DNA of 64,000 nt from Tautonia plasticadhaerens (GTDB lineage Bacteria; Planctomycetota; Planctomycetia; Isosphaerales; Isosphaeraceae), in contig NZ_CP036427.1 of NCBI RefSeq assembly GCF_007752535.1, positions 186,001 through 250,000 on the forward strand, read 5' to 3'. The translations under genes and the position numbers were made by a program. The notes beneath the pieces are model-generated. The model worked only from the letters and a program-made list of their open reading frames with translations, made no database searches and was not told the DNA's origin. Below are positions 1,188 through 32,641 of the stretch, one piece after another. Numbering within the stretch: the stretch's first letter is position 1; each line of letters begins with the position of its first letter.

Positions 1188-1637
1188 TCATCCCAGCAGG
1201 TCGACGAGGCGATGGACCTGCGCCTTGCCGAGATTGTCGACCAGCGGTTTCATCGCTTCGAGCGCCGCGAGCAGATCGGGCTGGCTGTCGACCGCCTGCG
1301 TCTTCGGCGGCGGGGCGAGGTACCCGCCTTCCGGCTCGACCTTCGGCTTCCGGCCGCGTCTCGCCTTGGGTGCGCCGCCCTTCTCCTGCCGCTTCTTCTG
1401 CTGGGCCTTGGAGGCGCTGAAATGCTGCGGCGTCACCTCGATGCCGAAGTGATCGCGGACATACTGCGCCCCCTCGCTCGGGCTCTCGACCCCAGCCGAT
1501 AGGGCCCGGCGGATCGCCTCGGACTTGGACAGGCCGCCGTCGTCCGTCCCCTCGGTGTCCGGTTCCGTGCCCTCGAGTTCGTCCTGGCTGACGGTTCCGG
1601 TATCGGCTTGCGAGGCTCGGGAAGATTTGCGCGCCAT
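1188..1637 (-). CDS. Conserved hypothetical protein with SKSEAIRRAL-type helical motif
   Basis: This 149-residue protein is not recognised as a named family. Residues 37-80 (SKSEAIRRALSAGVESPSEG, then YVRDHFGIEVTPQHFSASKA) look like a helical DNA-binding-like module, similar to short domains often predicted in planctomycete genomes. It is followed by a Lys/Arg-rich linker (RRGRKPK) and a C-terminal helix rich in Leu (DLLAALEAMKPLVDNLGKAQ). The N-terminal 35 residues are acidic and low-complexity. A nucleic-acid-binding role is only inference. It precedes the SMR-type transporter by 7 bases on the same strand. Confidence 0.6.
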   Translation of the reverse strand: MARKSSRASQADTGTVSQDELEGTEPDTEGTDDGGLSKSEAIRRALSAGVESPSEGAQYVRDHFGIEVTPQHFSASKAQQKKRQEKGGAPKARRGRKPKVEPEGGYLAPPPKTQAVDSQPDLLAALEAMKPLVDNLGKAQVHRLVDLLG

Positions 1638-2046
1638 TGGATGTATTCGCTTGGGTGCTGCGGGTCGATGCCTTTGCCCATGTTAACAGCGCGTGGCGAC
1701 GGGGCAAGATCCGCGCAGTTCGGCGTATATCGTGCGTCGCCGTCCGGCGTAAGGCAGCAGGCCGTCGCCTCCGTCGAATACACGGATCGCCATCGCATGC
1801 CGCCAACCTGGCCATGTCGCCCAAGGATCGGGCTTCCGTCCGGATGCTGGCGCCGGCGTGCCGATGCTCCCTGTCCGAGCGATGCGCCCTTCTTCGCCTG
1901 GAATTCGGTCACGGGTAGCGTCATTGCCTTCGGCAATCTTGCCCGGCCGGCAGCCTTGGCACGAGTCGGGCATAGGATTCGCCAAAACGGCGCGACGGAA
2001 GGTTGCCGTGGCTATTCAAGGTACAGCGGAACCGCGAGGGGTCGGG
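1638..2046. other. Intergenic region between divergent genes, nothing recognised
   Basis: About 410 bases separate the minus-strand gene ending its start at 1637 from the plus-strand MFS gene at 2047. Open frames here have no recognisable protein character. Promoters for both flanking genes should lie here but no confident -35/-10 pair is visible. Confidence 0.4.
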
Positions 2047-3289
2047 ATGAGCGAGGCGGGGGCAACTGAGACCGCGGGCCACAGGATCGCGGTCGGGGCG
2101 CTGTTCTTCATCCTGGGCGGCGCCGTCGGCAGCTGGGTGACGCGCATCCCCGAGGTGCAGACGTCGCTCGGCCTGGACGAAGCCTCCCTCGGGGTGGCGC
2201 TGCTCATGTCGGCCCTCGCCGCCATGGTGGCGATGCCGGCGGCCGGGAGGATTGCCCCTCTCGTCGGCACCCGGCGGCTCGCCTGGGGCGCCACGGCGGT
2301 CTTCTGCGTCGTGCTCCCGTTCATCCCGCTCGCGCCCGACCGGCCGGCGCTGATGGGGGCGCTCGCGGTATACGGGGCGGCGACCGGCGTGCTCGGGGTG
2401 ACGGGCAACGCCCTGGCCGTCCATGTCGAGGGGATCGTCGGCCGCCCGATCCTCTCCTCGATCCACGGGCTGTTCAGCCTCGGCGCCCCTGGCAGGGTCG
2501 GCTTCGGCTGCGGGCCTGGCGGCCCTGGGCGTGGGGCCGGTCGCGTCCCTTGCCGGCGCCGGGGCCGTGCTCATGGCGCTGTTATTGGCGGCCATCCCCC
2601 GTCTGCCGGACGCACCTGCCCTGCGCGACGAGGGCAGGGTCTGCCTGCCCCGGCGCGGTCTGCTCCTGCTCGGCGTGCTCGCCTTCCTGGGCCTCGTCGG
2701 CGAAGGGGCGATGGCCGACTGGAGCGCCGTCTATCTCCGCCAGTCGCTCGGCTCCCCCGCCTGGGCGGCCGCGCTGGGATTCGCCGCCTACTCGCTGGGC
2801 ATGACGGCGGCCCGGTTCCTGGGCGACCGGTTGAGCCGGGCGGCCGGGGACGCGGCCCTGCTCCGTGGCGGCGCCGGGCTTGCCGCCGCCGGCCTGGGGG
2901 GTGCGTTGGCGATGGGCCATCCGATCCCTGCGGTCATCGGCCTCGGGCTGGTGGGCGCCGGGCTGGCCAACGTCGTGCCGGTGCTGTTCCGCGCGGCGTC
3001 CCGGGTGCCGGGCGTGGCGGCGGTGTCGGGGATCGCCACCACCTCGACGGTCGGGTATCTCGGGTTCCTGGCCGGGCCGCCGGCGATCGGGGCGCTGGCG
3101 GACGCGGCCTCGCTCCCGGTCGCCCTCGCGATGGTCGTCGCCGCGGTCGCCGTCATCGCACTGCTCGGTGGGTTGGCCCTCGCACCGGCTACGGGGCGTG
3201 CCGGCGAGGATTTCGGGGCCGGCCCGATGATCCCGGCGGCCGAGGCCACGGCCGGCGAGGTAGGAAGGGGCTGCCTCGATGCCGGCTGA
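2047..3289 (+). pseudogene. MFS transporter (fucose-permease-like), single frameshift
   Basis: The N-terminal half (ATG at 2047) reads as a 6-helix MFS half with VGSWVTRIPEVQTSLGLDEA, typical of the FucP/YfcJ-like branch, through HGLFSLGA near 2490. The frame then changes by one base: the continuation LAGSASAAGLAALGVG and the next six helices (ending near 3200) lie in the other frame, to a stop at 3289. Aligned by eye, one base is missing close to 2490-2505 in a GC-rich run. Either the gene is broken or the base is a sequencing error. An intact product of about 400 residues would be an inner-membrane secondary transporter; the substrate cannot be read from the sequence. Confidence 0.7.
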
Positions 3290-19729: not shown

Positions 19730-19949
19730 CCTGATGACGTCCGGAGGGCCGCATCCCTTAGGCCGACCCGATCTGTTCCCCTGCTCCTCCTCGGCTGAGC
19801 TTCCCCTGTCCGCTCAACCGCAGATGATCCGGATGCACACCGTGGCCACCCCGACCAGCCCGAGGAACCCGAGCAACCCGGCCCCCCGAGGCCGACCCCA
19901 TCCTTCCAGGAGGACGCGATGTAACCGTCTTTCCAAGGACATCTTGCAG

Positions 19950-21218
19950 GGCCTGATAGCATCTTGGGGAGAGCAACCAACTCCCCGAGGAGGTCCGAGC
20001 CGGTCGACCGAGCTGGTTCTCTCCTCGGCCTTTCTGCCGGTGCGGATCGTGCCGGAGGAAGCCGATCAGCCCGCCGAGTCGACCCCGATCGAGATCGTGC
20101 TGCCCTCCGGGCCGACCGTCCGGGTTCCCCGCGGCTTTGATTCGAAGACCCTCGACGCGGTCCTCGCCGTCCTGGAGAAGCCGCCCCAGCCGATCGACAA
20201 GGGCCTGCCCGGACCGGGCCTGCTGGCCAACGTGATCACCGGCAAGTACGGCGACCACCCGCCGCTGTACCGCCAGGAGGACATCCTCTCCCGGCATGGC
20301 GTCACCCTCTCGCGAGCGACACTCTGTGAATGGATGGCCCGGGCCGCCGAGGTGCTCAGGCCGCTCCACGATGTCATGGCTGGGCTGGCCCGGAGCTCGA
20401 AGGTTATCTGGACCGATGATACGACCGTGCCGGTCTGGGACCCGACGCTACCCGCGACGAGGATCGGGCGGTTCTTGGTCTACGTCGGGGATGACTGGAA
20501 CCCGTTCAGAGTCTACGACTTCACGCCCCGCCGCACACGCGACGGCCCCGAGCGGTTCCTTGGCAGCTATCAAGGCTACCTGCAGGCCGATGCCTTCTCG
20601 GGTTACGACCGGATCTGTACCGAGCCGGGCGTGATCAAGGTAGCCTGCTGGGCCCACGTCCGCCGCAAGTTCTACGAGTGCCGGACCACGGCGCCGGTGC
20701 TGGCCCACGAGGCGTTGGCCCGGATCCGGCAGCTCTACCGGATCGAGGCGGAGTGCCGTGCGTTACCGGCCGCGAAGCCTCGGGAAATCCGGCAGCGGGA
20801 CGCAGTGCCCCTCCTGGCGGCGTTCGAAGCCTGGTTGGACGAGCAGTGCCGGCAGATGCTGCCGAAGAGCCCGCTAGGGAAGGCGATCGCCTACGCCAGG
20901 AACCAGTGGCAGGGCTTGCAGACCTACACCCGCGACGGTGAGTTGAGCATCGACAACAACCTCGCCGAGCGGACGCTACGAGCCCAGGCGATCGGCCGGA
21001 TGAATTACTTATTTGTCGGGAGTGACCGGGGCGGTCGCACGGCGGCGGTCCTGTATAGTTTCGTGGGCAGCTGCAGACGGCTCGGGGCCGACTCCTTCGC
21101 CTATCTCCGGGATGTGCTGGAGCGGCTGCCGACCCATCCAGCGGAGCGGCTCGGAGAGCTGCTGCCCGATGCGTGGTTCGTGGCCCATCCGAACGCGCGG
21201 CGCAAGGTCGCTTCCTGA
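19950..21218 (+). mobile_element. IS66-family remnant: TnpA end fused to TnpC
   Basis: The frame around 20000-20175 (FLPVRIVPEEADQP, IEIVLPSGPTVRVPRGFDSK, TLDAVLAVLE) is the C-terminal end of IS66 TnpA. It runs without a stop into KGLPGPGLLANVITGKYGDH and onward as the TnpC transposase to 21218, with IWTDDTTVPV, QADAFSGYDRI, CWAHVRRKF and DNNLAERTLRA. The N-terminus of TnpC with its zinc-binding part and the whole TnpB gene are missing. An internal deletion has therefore joined TnpA to TnpC in frame. The DDE residues of TnpC are still present but the element is presumably dead. Confidence 0.8.
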
Positions 21219-21335
21219 CGGGCCAACCCAGGTGAGCCGGGTCTGGACTCGCTCCAACTGTGGCGATAACCCGCATTGCGGGCGGCCGTCAGCCGCCTCC
21301 AGTCGGCACGATCGTCGAACGTGAGACGGTCACCG

Positions 21336-21674
21336 TCAGGATGCGTTCGGATCGTAGTCCAGTACAGCTCCGTCTTCGATGTAATATCGGAGCTTTTGCG
21401 CGGGCGGGAACGGCGCATCAAGGATAGCATGCGGGATGACAATTCCGTCAGCGACCATCCTGGTGTCGATCAGATTGAGGCACGCTTCCCGTTCGGCTTC
21501 ATATCCGGGGTGGAGGCCCAGCGCATCGTTCGAGAAGCCAGCATTTGCGGCGCGGTGGCAAATAGCTTCCATCACCCTCAGCCATTCCTGTCCGGAAAGT
21601 CCTTCGCCGTTGAAGTCGGTCTGCCCGCGCAAGTTCTCGCTCCTTAGCCTGAGGGCTTCTCTGGACACTCTCAT
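21336..21674 (-). CDS. Hypothetical protein, probably 5'-truncated by the IS3 element
   Basis: The 112-residue frame reads naturally (EGLSGQEWLRVMEAICHRAA, GLHPGYEAEREACLNLIDTR, then IPHAILDAPFPPAQKLRYYI) and ends in a short acidic tail. No family is recognised. Its first four codons lie inside the left end of the IS3 element (from 21662), so the native N-terminus has probably been removed. It faces the truncated helicase on the other side of the IS, but their frames cannot be shown to join. Confidence 0.5.
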   Translation of the reverse strand: MRVSREALRLRSENLRGQTDFNGEGLSGQEWLRVMEAICHRAANAGFSNDALGLHPGYEAEREACLNLIDTRMVADGIVIPHAILDAPFPPAQKLRYYIEDGAVLDYDPNAS

Positions 21675-21706
21675 GGGCCATAATGGCCCTGGAAGGAGTG
21701 CCCGAG

Positions 21707-22045
21707 ATGACCAAGAAGAGCACCAAGACCGACTCCCAGGATCGTGGCCGGTTCTCCGCCAGGCGGAAGACCGAGTCCGTCCTCCGGCTGCTCCGGGGCG
21801 AGGACCTCGACTCCCTCTCCCGGGAGCTGGGCGTCACCGCCGCCACGCTCTCCTCCTGGCGGGAGGGCTTCCTCGACGGCGGCACGGCGGCCCTGAAGAG
21901 CCGACCGACCGACGACCGGGACGAGGTGATCGCCCGCCTCCAGGCGAAGGTCGGCCAGCTCACCATGGACAATGAGCTGCTGGGGCAGAAGTGCCAGCAC
22001 CTGGAGAGCGGCCGCCCTTTTGTCGCGAGGAGGCGGAGCAGTTAG
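21707..22045 (+). CDS. IS3 transposase OrfA
   Basis: The 112-residue protein has a helix-turn-helix of the IS3 type: RFSARRKTESVLRLLRGEDL, DSLSRELGVTAATLSSWREG. It ends with a leucine-zipper-like helix (ARLQAKVGQLTMDNELLGQK). OrfB lies in the -1 frame and overlaps its end by 55 bases, which fits the usual programmed -1 frameshift giving OrfAB. The start at ATG 21707 follows a GGAGTG-type ribosome binding site. Confidence 0.85.
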   Translation: MTKKSTKTDSQDRGRFSARRKTESVLRLLRGEDLDSLSRELGVTAATLSSWREGFLDGGTAALKSRPTDDRDEVIARLQAKVGQLTMDNELLGQKCQHLESGRPFVARRRSS

Positions 22046-22950
22046 CCCGCTCCGCCTCCCCCGGCACCGGCAAGCGATACGGCATGCAGCGGGTCTGCCG
22101 CATCTTCGGGATCGCCCGCTCGACCGCCTACTACCTCAAGGCCCGGGAGGCCGTGCCGCCGGAGCAACGGCCGGTGCCGCACAAGCGGGGGCCGGTCGGG
22201 GCCGGCACCGGCGAGGAGCTGGTCGGCCACATCCGTCGGGTCCTGGCCGAGTCGCCGTTCACCGGCGAGGGCTACCGCAAGGTCTGGGCCCGCCTGCGGC
22301 ATCAGGGCATCCGCACGGCCTCCGAGCGAGTGCGGAGGCTGATGCGGGAGCACCGCCTCCAGGCCCCCCGCCGGGGCGGCCACCCGCACGGGCCGAAGGC
22401 CCACGACGGCACCATCACGACCGAGGAGCCGGACTCGATGTGGGGCACGGACATGACCACGACGGTCACCACCGGCGAGGGCCTGGTCCACGTCTTCGTG
22501 GCCGTCGACCACTGCACCTGCGAGTGCGTCGGCCTCCACGTGGCCGAGCGAGGCGAGCGTTTCGAGGCGCTGGAGCCGCTGCGCCAGGGGGTGCGGGAGC
22601 ACTTCGGCGGCTTCGACCGGGGCATCGCCCGTGGCCTGGCGATCCGCCACGACCACGGCAGCGCCTACATGAGCGACGACTTCCAGCGGGAGCTGACCTT
22701 CCTCGGCATGGCCAGCTCGCCGAGCTTCGTGCGGGAACCGGAGGGCAACGGCTGCGCCGAGCGATTCGTCCGCACGCTGAAGGAGCAGTTGCTCCGGGTG
22801 AGGTCGTTCGCCACGGTGGTGGAGTTGGCCGAGGCGTTGGGTGAGTTCAAGAGGACGTACAACGAGCGGTGGGTGATCCGCCGCCATGGTCACCGGACAC
22901 CGAGCCAGGTGCGGCGGGACCTCGTCGGTGGCGTCCAGGCGGCGGCGTGA
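21991..22950 (+). CDS. IS3 transposase OrfB (DDE catalytic part)
   Basis: It contains the HTH_21-type segment (YGMQRVCRIFGIARSTAYYL, then GYRKVWARLRHQGIRTASER) followed by the rve integrase core. The DDE triad is in MWGTDMTTTV, HVFVAVDHCT and EGNGCAERFVRTLKEQLL. The C-terminus has YNERWVIRRHGHRTPSQVRR, typical for the family. It is probably made as an OrfAB fusion by -1 frameshifting in the 55-base overlap with OrfA. Confidence 0.85.
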   Translation: MPAPGERPPFCREEAEQLARSASPGTGKRYGMQRVCRIFGIARSTAYYLKAREAVPPEQRPVPHKRGPVGAGTGEELVGHIRRVLAESPFTGEGYRKVWARLRHQGIRTASERVRRLMREHRLQAPRRGGHPHGPKAHDGTITTEEPDSMWGTDMTTTVTTGEGLVHVFVAVDHCTCECVGLHVAERGERFEALEPLRQGVREHFGGFDRGIARGLAIRHDHGSAYMSDDFQRELTFLGMASSPSFVREPEGNGCAERFVRTLKEQLLRVRSFATVVELAEALGEFKRTYNERWVIRRHGHRTPSQVRRDLVGGVQAAA

Positions 22951-24028: not shown

Positions 24029-25267
24029 CTACGAGCCGGCTGGCCCGCCCGGGGGACGATTCCCCCCCTGGGGTACGGGACCCTTGAGCAGCCCTTCCAG
24101 GGCGAGGTTCCCCCCTCCCCGGTGGATCATGACGTGGCAGTTGGCGCAGAGCACCGCGAGGTCCTCCAGCCTGGTCAGGCTCGGCCTGGTACGGTCGGAG
24201 AGCGGCTTGAAATGGTGGACCTGGGCGTAGTCTCGCCCCGGCTCCCCGTAGACCTCGAAGAAGTCGAAGCCGCAGACCTGGCAGGGGAGCCGCCCCGCGT
24301 TGGCCGCCTTCGCCTGGGCGAGCTTCTCGTCCCTCAGCCAACGCTCCCTGGCCCGGTGCCGGGTCAGCGCGATCCGCACCTCCCCCTCCATGGCCCCGGG
24401 ATCCTCGTCCACCTTTCGGGCGGCATCGTACCGGCCGACCAGATCGGCCCAGAGCCGCTCCAGGCCCTCCACGCCCTGGCGAATCTGGATGCCCGAGGCC
24501 GGGGTCGCCCAGTTCACCGACGCCAGGGGGCCGTCCCGGAGCCTGTCCAAAGGGAGAATCTCGTCGATCTCCGGGTCGAAGATCCGCTCGAAGCCCACGT
24601 CCACCCTCAGGGCGGTGTCGCCCCGTTCCCGACGGGCATCGTCCCAGTGCGGCCCCTCGTAGGTCGCCGACCTGGCCCACCCGGCGGCCATGATCCCCCT
24701 CGGCTCGACCCCCTGCCGGAGGAGGAACAGCCGGTCCCCCGGCCTGATCCGCCTGGTGTTCCCGCAACTTCAGCGGTCCTCGACGGGCCTGCCCTCGGCG
24801 GTCCGGAGGACCCAATCCTCCAGGTCGTCCCATTGCCAATTGCCCGGATTCCAGGTCAGGAGGTAGGTGTCGTGGGCGGCCTCGACGGGCTCCAGCAGCA
24901 GCGCGAGGGCGACATCGGTCCTGCCCGCCCGCCGCTGCTTCCCTTCGAGGTAGGACCGGTCCTCGATCACGCCCTTGACCCGGTAGTGGCCGTCGTACAT
25001 CCAGGCGTTCGGGCCCTGCTTGAGGAAGACGGGGATCGGCCCGCCCTGCTTCGCCAGTTGCCTCGCCTTCTTCAGGATCGGGCGATCGACGCCCTCCTCG
25101 TCGGATCCGCCCACCAGGATCTCGTACGGGGCCTCGCGGTTCGAGTCCTGCGAGAAGCAGCCGCAGACCACCCGACCGGCCCGCTGGGGCAGGTAGGAGA
25201 CCGTCTCGCCCCCGAGTTCGGCGTGGATGTGTTCCCTGGTATACGACTCGCCACGGACGAATGGCAT
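24029..25267 (-). pseudogene. Type IV-like (McrA/HNH) restriction endonuclease with one in-frame TGA
   Basis: Start at ATG 25267, with GGAG about 9 bases upstream. The N-terminal module (YTREHIHAELGGETVSYLPQ, GRVVCGCFSQDSNREAPYEI) resembles an SRA-like base-reading region of McrA-type enzymes; this assignment is tentative. It is followed by a PUA/EVE-like part beginning YLLTWNPGNWQWDDLEDWVL. At 24770-24772 a TGA stands where relatives would have Trp (VEDR*SCGNTRRIRPGD). The frame then continues to an HNH nuclease: LPCQVCGFDFFEVYG, YAQVHHFKPLSD and LAVLCANCHVMIHRGG. An intact protein would cut modified incoming DNA. One point change (TGG to TGA) has split it, unless the base is a sequencing error. 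Confidence 0.65.
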
Positions 25268-25529: not shown

Positions 25530-26438
25530 CTAACGGACACCCATGCTGAGGATCGTCTTCCGCAATTCGGTGCAGACAGTCCCCACGGTGGAAGCGATAC
25601 GCGCGGGGTCGTGTTCGACGTAGGTGATGGGCGTCACGCCCAGGAGATCGGTGGGGATTTTCAGGTTGGTGTCCCGGTCTTTGATGATGAAGGTCCGCTC
25701 CCGACCCAGCCCGCCCATGAACAGGCCCAATTCGAACACGACGTTATCACGTGGGGTGTCCGACTGGCGGCGGCGACTCACCACCTTGTCGTCCGGGCCG
25801 AAGACGAGGCCCGCAAAATCCGCCTCCTTGACCATCATCAACAGGGCGTCGATCGAGACGCTCGATGGGCCGAAAACGTCATCGGTCCAACCGATGACGT
25901 TGATCGGGGCGTTCTTCAGGCCGAGTTTGATCTCCTCGGCGATGACCAGCCCCTCACGCGATGAACCGAGGAAGAGGACCGGTTCAGGGTTCGGGGTGCG
26001 ATGGAATTGGGCCCGCTGACGCAATCGTTCGGCGAGGGTCCTGGCGATGGGCCTCCAGACTCGCGGATACTGCTCGGCGATCCGGTGGAATTCCGGCTCG
26101 TTGACCCGGAGCGCGGCGACTTGCGTACGGGCGACCACCGTGGCCGAGCGGACGGCAGAGGCGTCGAGCATGACCATCTCGCCGACGTAATCCCGGGGCC
26201 CCCTGGACGCGACCCAACGCGAATTGACCAGGATGTCCACCTCTCCGCAGAGGATGATATAGAGGTCGTCGTCCCCGGCACCCTGCTCGATGATGCGATC
26301 TTGAACCCCATATTCGATGACCTCTCCGACTTCGGCCAGCCTTGTGGCTAGTCCGGCATCGTGCTCTACCAGGGCATTGCCCTTGAGGGCCTCGATCAGC
26401 CGCCGCCTGCCCTCGTCACCCTCGAAGCGATTCTTCAT
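25530..26438 (-). CDS. Pycsar-type effector: cyclic nucleotide-binding plus TIR domain
   Basis: The 302-residue protein has a cyclic nucleotide-binding domain at about 30-145, with a phosphate-binding cassette YVGEMVMLDASAVRSAT (Gly86-Glu87, Arg97). A TIR-like domain of the CAP12/PycTIR type follows at 153-275: VLFLGSSREGLVIAEEI, DFAGLVFGPDD, PRDNVVFELGLFMGGLGR with Glu236 as the probable NAD-hydrolysing residue, and LKIPTDLLGV. In Pycsar systems such effectors bind cUMP or cCMP made by the cyclase on infection and then deplete NAD+. A strong GGAGG lies 6 bases before the start. It is the last gene of the operon with the E2-like and cyclase genes, 75 bases after the former. Confidence 0.85.
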   Translation of the reverse strand: MKNRFEGDEGRRRLIEALKGNALVEHDAGLATRLAEVGEVIEYGVQDRIIEQGAGDDDLYIILCGEVDILVNSRWVASRGPRDYVGEMVMLDASAVRSATVVARTQVAALRVNEPEFHRIAEQYPRVWRPIARTLAERLRQRAQFHRTPNPEPVLFLGSSREGLVIAEEIKLGLKNAPINVIGWTDDVFGPSSVSIDALLMMVKEADFAGLVFGPDDKVVSRRRQSDTPRDNVVFELGLFMGGLGRERTFIIKDRDTNLKIPTDLLGVTPITYVEHDPARIASTVGTVCTELRKTILSMGVR

Positions 26439-26513: not shown

Positions 26514-27173
26514 TCATGCCATTCGTCGATTTCGAGAACGATTACCGCCGCCGAGTCGCGGACGCTTCGGCCTCGCGGTACCGGACAGGTGAGCCCCCTG
26601 GACGACCGACAGGTGGCAGTCCCGATACGCTATGCCACTCCCGCAGGGGCAAGGCTCGGTGACGCGGATTGACCCACGCGCCCGGACCGCCTCGACGATC
26701 CCTTCCGTGCCGTGCGACCTGGCTTCGCCCGGCCAGACGGCCGGTGGGCCCTCGGCTACCTTCGCCGCGAGGTCTCGCTGATAGATGACCTCCTTCCTCA
26801 GGAAGGAGGCGGTGACCGCCAGCAGTTCCCCCAGCGAGTCCTCCCGCGCGAAGTCGATGCCCGACTCTCCCGGGACGAAGAGGCAGAGTCTCCAGTCGGG
26901 CTCGATGTGCGAGTCGAATCCGTTCCGCCATCGGTCACGGTGACTATACAAATAGACGGACGGCACAAGTCCCGCGTCTGGGAAGCGGTCCGGGTAGGTG
27001 ACCCTGATGTTGAACGGGCCGTACTCGTGCCCGTGGCGGGACAGGACGCTGAGGTGGCCGGTGATGAAGGCCGTGCCCCTCGGGTCCACTCCGGGCCGGG
27101 CGCAGAAGAGGAGCTTGCGTGCGACCTCCCGCTCCGTACGCCAGCGCTCAGGGTTCCGGTCGTACCACCCCAT
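26514..27173 (-). CDS. E2-like ubiquitin-conjugating-fold protein with C-terminal SEC-C motif
   Basis: Residues 1-135 fit the prokaryotic E2 pattern. YGPFNIRVTYPDRFPDAG corresponds to the E2 central sheet and the (h)P-x-x-FP motif. DSHIEPDWRLCLFVPGE places Cys97 where the E2 active-site Cys is expected. EDSLGELLAVTASFLRKEVI is the following helix. After a linker, CPCGSGIAYRDCH (175-187) is a SEC-C zinc-binding motif. The gene starts 6 bases after the cyclase stop, so it is co-translated with it. E2-like proteins modify or prime the cyclase in type II CBASS; an E2 in a Pycsar-type operon is not something I know to be described. No E1 or JAB protease gene is adjacent. The E2 call rests on motif reading only. 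Confidence 0.65.
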   Translation of the reverse strand: MGWYDRNPERWRTEREVARKLLFCARPGVDPRGTAFITGHLSVLSRHGHEYGPFNIRVTYPDRFPDAGLVPSVYLYSHRDRWRNGFDSHIEPDWRLCLFVPGESGIDFAREDSLGELLAVTASFLRKEVIYQRDLAAKVAEGPPAVWPGEARSHGTEGIVEAVRARGSIRVTEPCPCGSGIAYRDCHLSVVQGAHLSGTARPKRPRLGGGNRSRNRRMA

Positions 27174-27179
27174 GGTATC

Positions 27180-28760
27180 CTACTTCCCGGACCATGGCTT
27201 CGAGGCGCCCATGGCGGGCCGGGTCGGCTCGCCGCCCGGGGTAATGATGCCGAAGCCGCCCCCGGCCCGCTTGACCGCCAGCCGGTTCGCCCTCGCCGAC
27301 TCCTCCTCTTCGATCTCGTCGAGGCGGGGGAAGGTCAGGCCCTCGGCGACGAACGCCCCGCTGCCATCCTGGCGGAACCACCCCTTGAGCGTCCCCTCGG
27401 GCAGGGCGTCGTGGATCGTCCGACTGATGCGGATCTCCCCGCCCCCTGATCGGAGTTGGAGGTCCTCGGCCGACTCCACCTCCGGCCCCAAGACGATGAC
27501 GATCCGCCGACCCTGCTTGCCGAGTCGCGTCACCAGCGTCCGGCCAACATCGAGCCCGATGGCGACCTTGAGATCCTTCTGCTCACCCAGGTGCTCGTTC
27601 AGGACGTGGGCCATCGAGGACTGGATGCCCACGGCCAGATCCACCGCGTTGCGGCACCGGTCGGAGAAGCCCTCGTCGCCGGTCGGGGTATGGACGAGGG
27701 CGATCACTCGATCTCCCTGGTGCTGGATCACGAGACCCTCGTAATCCTTCTTGATGACGGCGTGGAACTCCCGTCGGATCATGTGCAACTTGCGGACGAG
27801 CGAGGCCACCGAGTCGTCGGACTCGGCCCGCTGGACGTACTTGGTGAAGCCGTCGATGTCCGCGAAGATGGCGATGGCGTCGGTCCGCTTGCACCTCCGC
27901 TCGGTCAGCACGTCAGGGTCGATCAGGGTGCCGGCCTCGACGACCTCGATCTGGTCCAATGGCAGTTCATCGCGGTAGCCTTCGGTCTTCTCCCTGAGGG
28001 CATCTTCGTCGTATCGGACACCGAGTTCCTCGGCCAGGTCGGCGTGGTCCTTCCAGCGTAGGCCCTTGGCCTGGTAGGTCACCTCGCCCGAGACCGTCCT
28101 GGATCTGGAGAAGTGTCCCTTGAGGCACTCTGGAAGGGCATCGTACACCGGCCTGGTGAGGGTGATTGTGCCGCCGCCGTCGAGTATCTTGGCCCCGAGG
28201 TTGGCGCACGAGCCCAGGCAGATCCGCTCACGTTCCCCGTGGAATCCGATGTTGGCCACGTAGCTCTGCCCGGCGGCGATGCCGACAGCCCCTCGGAGGT
28301 TTCGCACCTCGGAGAAGACGCCATTGAACACATCGTAGAGATACGAGTTCAGCGTGATGCCCATGATGACCGCGCGCTTCGCCCGCTCGGCCACTCGTCG
28401 CTCGCATTCCTCCTCGTCTTCGTGGTCGTAGGGCTTGAAGTTCAGGCAATGCAACCGGGCCGCCTGGAGTTGGATCGGCTTGATCTCGTCCTCGCGGAGC
28501 AGGTCGCCCTGGACCTTTCGGAGGACGCTCGCAGCCCGGATCAACCTCTTCTGCTCCCGCTTGTCGCCGCCCGCGTCCCCGACCGCGAGGTGGAAGTTCG
28601 GGACATCGACATAGATGTGGACGCCCTGAACCCGCCGGACATCCTTGGTCCCGAGGTTCGTGAAGTCGGTGTCCCGCCGTAGGTCAGAGACGTTGACCTC
28701 GAAGCTCCCCGAGCCGTGCAACGACACGCGGCGTCTGGCCCTCTGCTCGTCCCAAGCCAT
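27180..28760 (-). CDS. Pycsar-type pyrimidine cyclase (two class III cyclase-like domains)
   Basis: The start at 28760 (MAWDEQRARR) follows GGAG about 8 bases upstream and gives 526 residues. The C-terminal half is a class III nucleotide cyclase: IAIFADIDGFTKYV with metal ligand Asp301, GLVIQHQGDRVIALVH with Asp350, and KVAIGLDVGRTLVTRLGKQG. The N-terminal half (40-240) is a second, diverged cyclase-like domain: VHIYVDVPNFHLAVGD and AVGIAAGQSYVANIG. A pseudo-dimer of this kind is typical of PycC proteins, which make cCMP or cUMP during phage infection. The neighbouring CNB-TIR effector supports this role. The base specificity cannot be read from the sequence. It is the first gene of the minus-strand operon. 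Confidence 0.8.
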   Translation of the reverse strand: MAWDEQRARRRVSLHGSGSFEVNVSDLRRDTDFTNLGTKDVRRVQGVHIYVDVPNFHLAVGDAGGDKREQKRLIRAASVLRKVQGDLLREDEIKPIQLQAARLHCLNFKPYDHEDEEECERRVAERAKRAVIMGITLNSYLYDVFNGVFSEVRNLRGAVGIAAGQSYVANIGFHGERERICLGSCANLGAKILDGGGTITLTRPVYDALPECLKGHFSRSRTVSGEVTYQAKGLRWKDHADLAEELGVRYDEDALREKTEGYRDELPLDQIEVVEAGTLIDPDVLTERRCKRTDAIAIFADIDGFTKYVQRAESDDSVASLVRKLHMIRREFHAVIKKDYEGLVIQHQGDRVIALVHTPTGDEGFSDRCRNAVDLAVGIQSSMAHVLNEHLGEQKDLKVAIGLDVGRTLVTRLGKQGRRIVIVLGPEVESAEDLQLRSGGGEIRISRTIHDALPEGTLKGWFRQDGSGAFVAEGLTFPRLDEIEEEESARANRLAVKRAGGGFGIITPGGEPTRPAMGASKPWSGK

Positions 28761-29199
28761 CAGGTTCTCCAGCCTTGCGGCGCAATTTGCCGATCGGTTC
28801 GGTCCTACAAGCCTGCCCGTCCGGTGATTGAGCGGCGATCGAATACCTCTCACCGCCGTCAAACCGTCGTCCAGCAGGAGATGTGGAGGGAGTGCTAGCG
28901 CCCGCGACTGCCGTCGTCCACCAATTCGTCGTAGGCTTGGCGACGCGGAATGGTAACTCCCCTCCGACCCGACCCATGGCGTCATGGATTTGTAGGATGA
29001 GGTCCTTGATCATCCGACCGGCCCGGACATACAATTTCTTGGGCATCGGCCGCCCGGCACCCATTGGAATGCATAATTGGTTGGGCATCTTCGGAGGACA
29101 AGGCCCCATCTCGAAACAATTTTCTGGACTATCTTGGGTCAAGGACTAGGATGATGCCCAAGACTTTTGTCGCCGACCATGGGCGCGAGGTAATGGAGG
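28761..29199. other. Divergent promoter region of the defence island
   Basis: These 440 bases separate the Pycsar-type operon (minus) from the XRE/ImmA-IrrE gene (plus). GC content is lower than in neighbouring genes. A minus-strand frame (to 28684) includes KKLYVRAGRMIKDLILQIHD and could be a short leader gene, but the evidence is weak. No clear operator repeat is seen, although the divergent HTH protein is a natural candidate regulator. Confidence 0.3.
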
Positions 29200-30369
29200 A
29201 TGACGACGCAGGCCGCCCGGCATCGAGAGCCGATCGGGATCGGCCCCCTGATCCGCAAGCAACGAGAGGCGACTCGCATGACCGTCGCCCACCTCGCCCA
29301 ACGCATCGGGGTGAGCCGCAATACCATCACCAATTATGAGAGCGGTAAGACCGAGCCGAGCGCAGGTGATCTGGTCCGGATCGCCGACGCGTTGGGATGT
29401 CCTCTGGTCGCATTGCTCGGCGACGACGTTGCCCCTCCTCCCCCCCGCTTCGCGTTCAGGGCACATACGGCCCTCCGCAAGGATCCCTCGATCATCCTCA
29501 TGGTCCGCAGGTACTTGCGGGCCTACTCGGAGATCGAGGAGATCGCGGGCGTCCGGCTCCCCGGGGCCTTACGCCAGTTCGTCCTGGACGCGGACGGCCC
29601 CTTAGGGGACCGGGACATCGAGATGGCGGCTGACACACTCAGGGAGTCGTGCGGCCTCCGGGACTGCGGCCCGGAGAACATCGCGGGTATCCTTGAGGGC
29701 CTCGGCGTCCGATGCCTGTTCTTCGACCACGACTCCAGGGGTTTGGACGGGATCAGCACCATCCAGGGCGACTTGATGCTGGTCCTGCTGAGGGATCGGA
29801 CCCGGAACATCGAGCGGACGATCTTCAGCGCCGCCCACGAATTGGGGCATCTGGTGCTCCATCCCCACTTGTTCACCGCCGAGGCCCGAGACGACGACCC
29901 GGGCCGGAAGTACGAGGAGGAGGCCAATAAGTTCGCCGGATGCTTCCTCGTCCCCAGCGACGATCTCGTCCGAATTTGGCGCGAGGAGCGGCTGGGCCGA
30001 TTGCCCCTGTTCCACGCGTTGCTGCTGCTCAAGCGGGTCTTCCGGGTGAGCTTCTTCTGCCTCTACCGCCGGGTCACTGAACTGGGACTGGCGAAGGAGG
30101 AGTACCCGATTTTTATCAGTCAAATTAAGAGTTGGCTGGGAATCGGCGGCAAGGCATCGATGGAGGATCTGGAGCCGGAGCCGCTCGACCCCGGGGCGCT
30201 CTACCGAACGACCCGGTTCCAGCGACTCGTCCGATCGGCGTTCCTCCAGGACCTCATCGGTGTCGCCAAGGTCGCCGAACTGCTCCAGATCACCGTTCAT
30301 GATGCGTCGGAGATGACATCGGACTGGCTGAGGCCCAGGGATGTGCTGGTGGACGAACGCCCTCTATGA
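29200..30369 (+). CDS. XRE-family HTH / ImmA-IrrE metallopeptidase
   Basis: The 389-residue protein begins with an XRE helix-turn-helix at about 15-70 (MTVAHLAQRIGVSRNTITNY). The ImmA/IrrE zinc-peptidase domain has the active-site helix AAHELGHLVLHPHLF (HELGH at 213-217) and the downstream EEEANKFAGCFLVPSDDL with the third ligand Glu region. The C-terminus (300-389) carries an additional helical part with REP-like DNA-binding features. Such proteins act as antitoxins or as damage- or phage-responsive regulators that cleave a repressor. It overlaps the PIN gene by 29 bases, and lies divergent from the Pycsar-type operon. Confidence 0.85.
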   Translation: MTTQAARHREPIGIGPLIRKQREATRMTVAHLAQRIGVSRNTITNYESGKTEPSAGDLVRIADALGCPLVALLGDDVAPPPPRFAFRAHTALRKDPSIILMVRRYLRAYSEIEEIAGVRLPGALRQFVLDADGPLGDRDIEMAADTLRESCGLRDCGPENIAGILEGLGVRCLFFDHDSRGLDGISTIQGDLMLVLLRDRTRNIERTIFSAAHELGHLVLHPHLFTAEARDDDPGRKYEEEANKFAGCFLVPSDDLVRIWREERLGRLPLFHALLLLKRVFRVSFFCLYRRVTELGLAKEEYPIFISQIKSWLGIGGKASMEDLEPEPLDPGALYRTTRFQRLVRSAFLQDLIGVAKVAELLQITVHDASEMTSDWLRPRDVLVDERPL

Positions 30370-30856
30370 CACCTGCTCGCTGATTTCGCTCGACTACCTC
30401 CTCTTGGAGCACCCGGGGGTCGAGCCGCATTTCTGCGGGGTCCGAGCCCTTGAAGCCAGCTTCGCGGCGGGACAGATGAGGGCCGATGCCGCCGACCGCA
30501 TTCGCGCGCGAGCTACGATCGTCGCACTTCCCGACCCGCATAACTTGGCCCATATCTTCTGCCGTTATCCCCCCTCGGTGGCACTCTCTGACATGGAGAA
30601 GCTCCTCTTCGCCGCTGCAATCCACCACGAGACCGCCGTTGTTACCCGGGACAGCCGACTGGCAAGATCGATCCGCGATGCGTCGTTGGTCGTCGGCAAC
30701 ATCGCGGTCATCCTGAGAGAGTTGGTCACCACGGAGATAGTGGCGCGGATCCGGTGCGAGGCGATTCTCCAGGCCCTCGTGAGGAGGAGCGACCTCATGC
30801 TGGGTACCCACGAACCCACCTGGGACGACTTGGAGAAGCACTGCTTCCCTGATTAA
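30341..30856 (+). CDS. PIN-like domain toxin
   Basis: The 171-residue protein has the PIN-fold layout: an N-terminal LYDTCSLISLDYLLLEH with the first acidic residue, then VALSDMEKLLFAAAIHHETA with Asp and Glu, and AVVTRDSRLARSIRDASLVV with the last Asp. These four acidic positions coordinate Mg2+ in PIN ribonucleases. The 29-base overlap with the XRE/ImmA-IrrE gene indicates translational coupling. The pair matches the DUF4411-like toxin with COG2856 antitoxin arrangement. The start could also be a GTG a few codons in. Confidence 0.75.
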   Translation: MCWWTNALYDTCSLISLDYLLLEHPGVEPHFCGVRALEASFAAGQMRADAADRIRARATIVALPDPHNLAHIFCRYPPSVALSDMEKLLFAAAIHHETAVVTRDSRLARSIRDASLVVGNIAVILRELVTTEIVARIRCEAILQALVRRSDLMLGTHEPTWDDLEKHCFPD

Positions 30857-31732: not shown

Positions 31733-32641
31733 AGAAGCCCTGACAAAACCGTGTGGCATGGAGTTTGCGCCCTGGTGCTGTTTTCCTCCGAACCGAAGGA
31801 GACACCACCATGGCGAGCGCCCACATGCCGGACGAGTTCTTCGATCTGGTTGCCCACCACCTGCCGCCGGAACCGGCCATCGGCCCCTACGGCGGGCGTC
31901 CGCCGATCGGGCACCGGGTCGCCCTGCGTGTCATCTGGTTCGTCCTGGCCACCGGCAATCGCTGGGAGGATGTCCCGCAGGAACTCGGCTGCTCAGGTCG
32001 CACCGCCCATCGCCGGCTGCGGGCCTGGGAGGAGGCCGGCATCTGGGACCGCCTCCATGCCGACCTGCTGAGGCTGCTCCGCAAGGCTGGCAAGCTGGAG
32101 ACCGACACGGTGGTCGTCGACGGCGTGACGGTGCGGGCCTCCGGCGGCGGCGAGGCGACCGGCCCGAGCCCCGTCGACCGCAGCAGGAAGGGCACGAAGC
32201 ACACGGTGATGGTCAGTCGCACCGGAGTGCCGCTGGCGATCCGCACCGCCGGGGCCAACGAGAGCGACCACCGCCAGATCATCCCGCTGGTGCTCGACTT
32301 CCCGAGCGTCGCCGGCAAACCGGGCAGGCCGAAGCAGTTGCCGGATGACCTGTATGCCGACCGGGGCTACGACAGCGAGGGGACGAGGGCGTTACTGCGT
32401 TGGATGGGCATCGAGCCGCACATCGCCAAGCGTCGGACACCGCACGGCAGCGGGCTGGGCAAGGTCCGCTGGGTGGTGGAGCGGACGATCGGCTGGATCA
32501 AGGGCCTGCGGCGGATGCGGGTGCGGTACGACCGGCTGGGGGTGATCCAGGACGCCTGGACGACCCTGGCGGCCTGTGTCATCTGCTTCCGTATCCTCCA
32601 CCAGGATGTGATGTGATTCACCCGGTTTTGTCAGGGCTTCT
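31733..32641 (+). mobile_element. IS5-family element copy 1 (909 bp)
   Basis: Terminal inverted repeats AGAAGCCCTGACAAAACCG are perfect for 19 bases and the element is 909 bp. The flanking triplets TAA and TTA fit the T/A-rich targets of this family. A second copy in the opposite orientation lies at 42454-43362 and differs at only a few positions (CAG against CGG at Gln/Arg of VIQDAW/VIRDAW). Confidence 0.9.
31810..32616 (+). CDS. IS5-family transposase
   Basis: The single 268-residue frame starts MASAHMPDEFFDLV with AAGGAG upstream. It has a DUF4096-type N-terminal part (GGRPPIGHRVALRVIWFVLA and GNRWEDVPQELGCSGRTAHR) and a DDE_Tnp_1 part: TDTVVVDGVTVRA (first Asp), LYADRGYDSEGTRALLR (second Asp) and VRWVVERTIGWIKGLRRMRV (Glu). 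It ends in ICFRILHQDVM. It appears intact. Confidence 0.9.
   Translation: MASAHMPDEFFDLVAHHLPPEPAIGPYGGRPPIGHRVALRVIWFVLATGNRWEDVPQELGCSGRTAHRRLRAWEEAGIWDRLHADLLRLLRKAGKLETDTVVVDGVTVRASGGGEATGPSPVDRSRKGTKHTVMVSRTGVPLAIRTAGANESDHRQIIPLVLDFPSVAGKPGRPKQLPDDLYADRGYDSEGTRALLRWMGIEPHIAKRRTPHGSGLGKVRWVVERTIGWIKGLRRMRVRYDRLGVIQDAWTTLAACVICFRILHQDVM

Follow-up and report, generated by a model that had tools for sequence, protein, structure and literature searches.

What this analysis adds is a Pro-Trp C-terminal tag which, across unrelated protein folds, is tied to proteins that join an E2-like domain to a SEC-C motif (E2-SEC-C). The gene immediately before E2-SEC-C could be scored in 24 loci, and in every one its product terminates in Pro-Trp followed by two to four residues. 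These 24 partners are 16 CD-NTases, six two-domain PycCs, one single-domain PycC and one metallo-beta-lactamase-fold (MBL) protein, so that in the loci examined the link between tail and E2-SEC-C is strict across folds. The pattern suggests one portable enzyme-and-tag module regulating several different bacterial immune systems. One of the 24 loci is an operon in the window, by which we mean the whole 64,000-nucleotide stretch of DNA that was analysed.

A Pycsar operon with a lone E2

The operon lies on the minus strand in the order PycC, 6 nt gap, E2-SEC-C, 75 nt gap, PycTIR-type effector (Table 1). The initial annotation had paired the E2-like protein with a cyclase, and PycC indeed lies directly upstream. 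The start given for PycC is the one common to its relatives, from comparison with L043, the longest open reading frame beginning at 28985. The effector matches the PADLOC effector/TIR (E 1.7e-105) and PycTIR (E 2.1e-95) models as well as Pfam PF00027 and PF10137. With a PycC-type cyclase and an adjoining effector that has a cyclic-nucleotide-binding domain, the operon is a Pycsar operon, and a variant of Pycsar that uses a CBASS-type lone E2. It is not a CBASS operon because the partner is PycC rather than a CD-NTase, but it may still work like one. Pycsar operons with an E2 are already known to annotators. We predict that the operon defends against phage and that an E1-less E2 regulates its cyclase; taken with the whole tag-and-conjugation explanation set out below, this has in our judgement an even chance of being correct.

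Table 1. Features of the operon and its proteins (window positions)
Feature	Position	Strand	Description
PycC, two-domain Pycsar cyclase	27180..28760	-	526 aa; PADLOC PycC PDLC02366 E 7.4e-94; Pfam Guanylate_cyc 41.3 bits
Lys-Pro-Trp of PycC C-terminal tail	27192..27200	-	read directly off the sequence; end ...GASKPWSGK
E2-SEC-C protein	26514..27173	-	219 aa ORF
E2-like domain, aa 33-162	26688..27077	-	best stretch, PADLOC PDLC00865
Cys97 codon, E2 catalytic-type cysteine	26883..26885	-	invariant in 15/15 homologues; aligns with the HxN...CL motif of E2 enzymes
SEC-C motif, aa 173-188	26610..26657	-	Pfam PF02810, 29.7 bits, cut-off 20.4
PycTIR-type effector	25530..26438	-	302 aa; cyclic-nucleotide-binding domain + CAP12/Pycsar TIR domain (PADLOC, Pfam)

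PycC followed by E2-SEC-C was found in six planctomycete genomes (the window, L004, L043, L100, L101 and L104). By eye, the third gene resembles the window effector in L004 (in a shorter frame, 253 aa), L043, L100 and L101; that of L104 resembles a Pycsar effector of the membrane type. In L043, from Planctomycetes bacterium SV_7m_r, the E2-SEC-C Pycsar operon is adjoined (1432-2854, minus strand) by another cyclase gene, of the single-domain kind, and by a gene whose product looks like a membrane protein; these two apparently form a further Pycsar.

The window operon has flanks like those of a mobile defence island, with transposase-like genes on both sides and an HNH protein (19734-22950, 24029-24691, 31753-32616); the gene at 31753-32616 is transposase-like by Pfam and the other transposase-like ones by eye. 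A divergent gene at 29200-30369 (+) encodes an HTH and ImmA/IrrE-type (Peptidase_M78) protein, whose best PADLOC match is RmrA (E 2.3e-37). It is followed at 30341-30856 (+) by a 171-aa ORF for which PADLOC, NCBIfam and Pfam gave no match.

Domains and fold of the E2-SEC-C protein

The fusion of an E2-like domain to a SEC-C motif that the initial annotation proposed is well supported. Pfam SEC-C is found above its cut-off (E 5.8e-7), and the ligand residues Cys175, Cys177, Cys186 and His187, a zinc ligand set of the form C-x-C ... C-H, are all present (CPCGSGIAYRDCH). The E2 models of PADLOC match the protein (PDLC00865, E 5.8e-15). None of the Pfam E2 models does, and PF20298 and PF20272 (E2-ntca/E2-Crich) gave no match at E <= 1. 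A profile built from 15 homologues, when compared with the PDB, retrieved solved ubiquitin-conjugating enzymes (best E2 match 2h2y, E 1.9e-6) alongside SEC-C matches in SecA, and, across the E2 domain but not the C-terminal modules, it aligned with proteins of the Pfam family E2-ntca ('Prokaryotic E2 domain'; hhalign 97.5%, E 5.7e-12). A PDB search with the Vibrio E2-SEC-C protein gave no match at E 0.01. His89, Cys97, His154, Gly158 and the SEC-C residues Cys175, Cys177 and Cys186 are invariant in all 15 homologues. The assignment of an E2 fold rests on the profiles, since the AlphaFold model (from a two-sequence input) is too poor, with a mean pLDDT of 41.

In a search of the whole genome, Pfam ThiF (E <= 1e-5) gave three matches and Prok-JAB (E <= 1e-3) two, all on contig C1; on the window's contig, C2, neither gave a match at these thresholds, in line with the earlier remark that E1 and JAB genes are missing nearby. 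No E1 was seen, by annotation or by eye, in the flanks examined of E2-SEC-C loci, and its absence is usual for this class. In the same genome a ThiF match (G000:C1:681620-683259) has a JAB match about 0.6 kb downstream.

It is possible that the SEC-C motif recruits the target or replaces an E1 partner. As to how the target is recognised, the Pro-Trp tail of the partner says more. That the motif points to SecA, SecB or the ribosome as partners was also considered and dropped, most of the weak genome matches covering the SEC-C stretch only. Such matches, many of them in frames of ∼1200 aa assumed to be SecA, were not counted as relatives.

Distribution and phylogeny

The same annotation called the fusion unusual. 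It is not: E2-SEC-C without E1 stands beside a CD-NTase in 16 of the 24 counted loci, and we therefore rejected the architecture as a novelty in itself. The architecture is already covered by PADLOC E2 models, with full-length matches. One of these models, PDLC00833, is labelled E1-E2 yet is 222 positions long and matches a full-length E2-SEC-C (L091, E 1.7e-56), and the label may mislead annotation. The CD-NTase loci come from Planctomycetota and from plasmids of Campylobacterota, Pseudomonadota, Bacillota and Bacteroidota. In L087 the E2-SEC-C next to the CD-NTase is recorded as 'SEC-C metal-binding domain-containing protein', and the CD-NTase of Vibrio gigantis (L084) is nearly identical to a solved structure, PDB 9woo. 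Searches for relatives found none in viral contigs, in phage records searched with the L087 protein or in plasmids searched with the window protein. Ten of the 13 plasmid E2-SEC-C records found were examined, the other three being from Ligilactobacillus and like L086. A 25th E2-SEC-C locus, L088, has an IS30 transposase in the partner's place and was not counted; nor were the repeat matches L030 and L096 (= L004), L098 (= L043), and L001, L031 and L102 (= window).

The E2-SEC-C proteins of the six planctomycete Pycsar operons fall into a single clade (tree support 100/99), as do the cyclases of these operons (100/100). The E2-SEC-C proteins of the MBL and single-domain PycC loci cluster with the CBASS-type E2 of L087, from Bacteroidota (86/85, on long branches). 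In AU tests of one-clade hypotheses, picked after the E2-SEC-C tree had been seen, a single origin of all cases with partners other than CD-NTases was disfavoured (p 0.031), and a single origin of both Pycsar kinds was not rejected (p 0.10); at the latter value, two separate acquisitions of E2-SEC-C by Pycsar are no more than a possibility. Among two-domain PycCs, the tree requires a minimum of two changes between E1-E2 and E2-ntca as partner.

The Pro-Trp tail of the partner

The Pro of the tail is preceded by Lys or Arg in 22 of the 24 loci, whilst the residue that follows the Trp varies (Gly in 7/24). The single-domain PycC with the tail is encoded on a Chryseobacterium plasmid (L091), and the MBL-fold partner on a Runella plasmid (L090). 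Nine of the 24 loci (L093, L094, L095, L097, L099, L100, L101, L103 and L104; 12 full-length matches less three repeats) were collected after the rule had been set down, and the tail is present in all nine. The literature that we searched, by topic rather than by motif name, contained in the parts consulted no mention of such a tail, and an earlier publication is possible.

Some tails have further features. Four of the six two-domain PycCs (L004, L043, L100 and L101) carry a tandem Pro-Trp, [R/Q/K]PW-xx-SKPW, with the copies six residues apart; the first copy reads GAW in L104 and is lost in the window PycC (RPAMGASKPW). The Runella locus (L090:1375-5286) has two MBL-fold proteins around E2-SEC-C, and its second MBL protein and last gene match PADLOC candidate PDC-M48 models.

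Forty-four comparison proteins, with another partner or none, were scored for Pro-Trp within the last ten residues, and none has it. They comprise 25 SMODS-family proteins, 14 two-domain PycCs whose partner is E2-ntca or E1-E2 (14 of 30 PycC records found), two single-domain PycCs without a visible E2 by eye (L155 and L156; 2 of 30 non-self records) and three MBL proteins with ThiF partners (L148, L149 and L157; 3 of 4 non-self records). The SMODS-family set covers 25 of 25 places, from 22 of 392 planctomycete genomes; these CD-NTases are of mixed clades and were taken mechanically as the longest frame over the match, so that some ends are uncertain. No E2-SEC-C came up when the E2 profile was run on the 1.5 kb flanks of the 25 SMODS loci; the profile matched one flanking gene only, an E1-E2-like neighbour in L127. 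A short E2 lies beside two of them, L132 (where it matches the Serratia E2) and L140 (by eye).

Of 382 non-overlapping ORFs (150 aa or longer) pooled from the window and the loci collected at that stage, 26 have Pro-Trp in the last ten residues, and 20 of these are E2-SEC-C partners. The remaining six are among 362 non-partner ORFs, three of them ending in PWx(2-4). Fisher tests of tail against E2-SEC-C partnership gave 2.6e-5 for two-domain PycCs and 9.7e-12 for CD-NTases, values which ignore relatedness; among related E2-SEC-C operons, common descent accounts in part for the CD-NTase tails. Evidence that does not depend on kinship comes from two observations: the tail recurs in unrelated folds, and in each fold the relatives with other partners lack it.

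A proposed mechanism and its alternatives

From the tail and from homology, we infer that E2-SEC-C processes and conjugates its cyclase. In the proposed mechanism, PycC would bear a C-terminal tag, Lys/Arg-Pro-Trp-x(2-4)-end, that is recognised by E2-SEC-C. Cys97 would attack at the Trp or immediately behind it, freeing the last residues of the chain, and the enzyme would hold the cyclase as a thioester. As the energy of the cut peptide bond would be retained, neither E1 nor ATP would be needed, and a cyclase kept in this form would explain how the E2 acts without E1. An amine, probably that of a second cyclase molecule, would next accept the cyclase, and the cyclase so conjugated would produce the cyclic pyrimidine by which the PycTIR NADase is activated. 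The probable role of SEC-C is to assist in docking the tail or the acceptor. The same enzyme-plus-tag module would serve the unrelated partners, namely CD-NTases, both kinds of PycC and the MBL-fold protein.

Several features of known systems bear on this proposal. In Cap2-type CBASS, the cyclase is joined via a C-terminal Gly or Ala and E1 activity is required, and the passages of the same paper on cyclase C-termini describe no conserved C-terminus in operons without Cap2 and Cap3, or without an E2 domain (PMC10097602). For an E2-only CBASS, the text of PMC11153139 cites cyclase-cyclase conjugation as a proposed activation mechanism, and a table in a review gives Tyr405 as the site (PMC12135389). 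In the PDB the chain of the Serratia cyclase is 407 residues long, which, if the numbering agrees with that of the review table, places Tyr405 two residues from the end, in a register like that of the tail Trp. The tail Trp stands two to four residues short of the C-terminus and what follows it is not conserved, as would be expected if the E2 cuts at or next to an aromatic residue. The Serratia E2 is without SEC-C and belongs to another E2 branch, so that the mechanism is carried over by analogy. That the tail is a substrate tag, cut at or near the Trp to give a cyclase thioester without E1 and then conjugated, seems to us about as probable as its opposite.

The tail could instead be a docking peptide only, with E2-SEC-C binding non-covalently as a scaffold or cyclase inhibitor. 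Conservation centred on Pro-Trp, with variable residues behind, makes a plausible binding motif; however, the catalytic-type His and Cys are invariant in all 15 homologues, and conjugation is reported for an E2-only CBASS in the relevant text of PMC11153139 and the table of PMC12135389, which leaves docking alone unlikely, if still a serious contender. E2-SEC-C might also act as a tail-trimming protease that cuts the tail and frees the cyclase without a transfer step. The position of the Trp and the unconserved residues behind it are as at a cleavage site, and C-terminal processing is reportedly a step of the Serratia system (Yan et al. 2024). Kinship to conjugating E2s, and the cyclase-cyclase conjugation cited in PMC11153139, favour transfer, and we consider trimming improbable.

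An E2 that works with an E1 encoded elsewhere, conjugating a ubiquitin-like protein or the cyclase in the manner of Cap2, could draw on the ThiF and JAB matches of contig C1. Such matches are absent from the window's own contig, the flanks examined of E2-SEC-C loci have no visible E1, and the partner ends in Lys, against the Gly or Ala of Cap2 substrates in the passages cited above (PMC10097602); this arrangement is accordingly very improbable. Finally, the tail might be a by-product of gene overlap or of the E2 ribosome-binding site, unselected in the protein. The genes do abut or overlap, and at 4 of the 24 loci the start codon listed for the E2 shares nucleotides with the Pro-Trp codons. 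Yet the distance from the Trp codon to the E2 start ranges from -62 to +28 nt, the gene gaps span -74 to +10, the 24 tails between them draw on all four Pro codons, and 14 PycC genes lying closely before other E2 or E1-E2 genes lack Pro-Trp. The variable spacing and the codon use argue that the conserved thing is the protein end and not a DNA artefact, and we find an overlap or ribosome-binding-site origin scarcely credible.

Returning to the tag-and-conjugation mechanism, its broadest form would make E2-SEC-C a transferable, E1-independent protein-tagging enzyme with a portable C-terminal code, [K/R]-P-W-x(2-4)-end, used jointly by unrelated immune systems (CBASS, Pycsar with two kinds of PycC, and an MBL system); other E2 classes would read other codes, so that the tail would tell which enzyme handles a protein. 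We think this general reading could equally be right or wrong, and hold it no higher than that because the single-domain PycC and the MBL protein contribute one locus each. It would bring Pycsar cyclases and an MBL-fold protein, besides CD-NTases, under regulation by E1-less E2s, and it offers a testable rule of substrate choice, Pro-Trp within the last six residues. If it is true, new partners could be found by the tail alone, the tag could be moved onto other proteins, and ubiquitin-like conjugation with one enzyme and no ATP would gain a simple recognition code. How a lone E2 can act without E1 would also become testable.

Comparison with known systems

One close parallel is Serratia CdnG-E2, an E1-less (short) type II CBASS (PDB 8hsb, 8yjy, 9kkb), which likewise has a lone E2 beside a second-messenger cyclase, and whose attachment site, as tabulated in the review, is near the cyclase C-terminus. 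As in the E1-less E2s of short type II CBASS, the window protein has a catalytic-type Cys in an E2-like domain and its operon contains no E1 or JAB. The partners differ, a CD-NTase in Serratia and PycC in the window, and the Serratia E2, of 162 aa, lacks SEC-C and groups with another E2 branch. CBASS-type E2-SEC-C operons, such as L083 (Aliarcobacter) and L084 (Vibrio), share the E2-SEC-C family and the Pro-Trp partner tail with the window, but have CD-NTase partners, other effectors and an E2 identity to the window protein of 15-24%.

The plasmid Pycsar loci L069-L082 are alike in that a two-domain PycC is followed by an E2-bearing gene, several having cyclic-nucleotide-binding/TIR effectors. 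In contrast to the window, the partner is of the Pfam E2-ntca/E2-Crich type (11/14) or a ThiF-bearing E1-E2 protein (3/14), and the PycC tails are of P-H/Y-x, RAH-x or Gly-Phe-Ser types, never Pro-Trp. Where the partner is E2-ntca, P-H/Y-x occurs in several, and two Arg-Ala-His copies are present in L077, L078, L080 and L082. Each E2 class may read its own tail code. Our guess is that 'ntca' stands for nucleotide-cyclase-associated. The cysteine-rich E2-Crich lies C-terminal to the E2 domain in 11 E2-ntca Pycsar loci (it is a separate gene in L081), so that these systems may generally include a module of zinc type following the E2.

For the MBL locus, a close precedent is the set of MBL operons that encode an E2-E1-JAB protein (Iyer et al. 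2006, PMC1779556), in which an MBL-fold protein is likewise paired with a protein that carries an E2. In those operons E1 and JAB are joined to the E2 in one protein, whereas the Runella MBL protein has E2-SEC-C. The tails differ with the partner: the MBL proteins with ThiF-bearing partners (L148, L149 and L157) end in KPMGGQ, KPMG and QPMGTEHE, and the Runella protein beside E2-SEC-C ends in KPWQRG.
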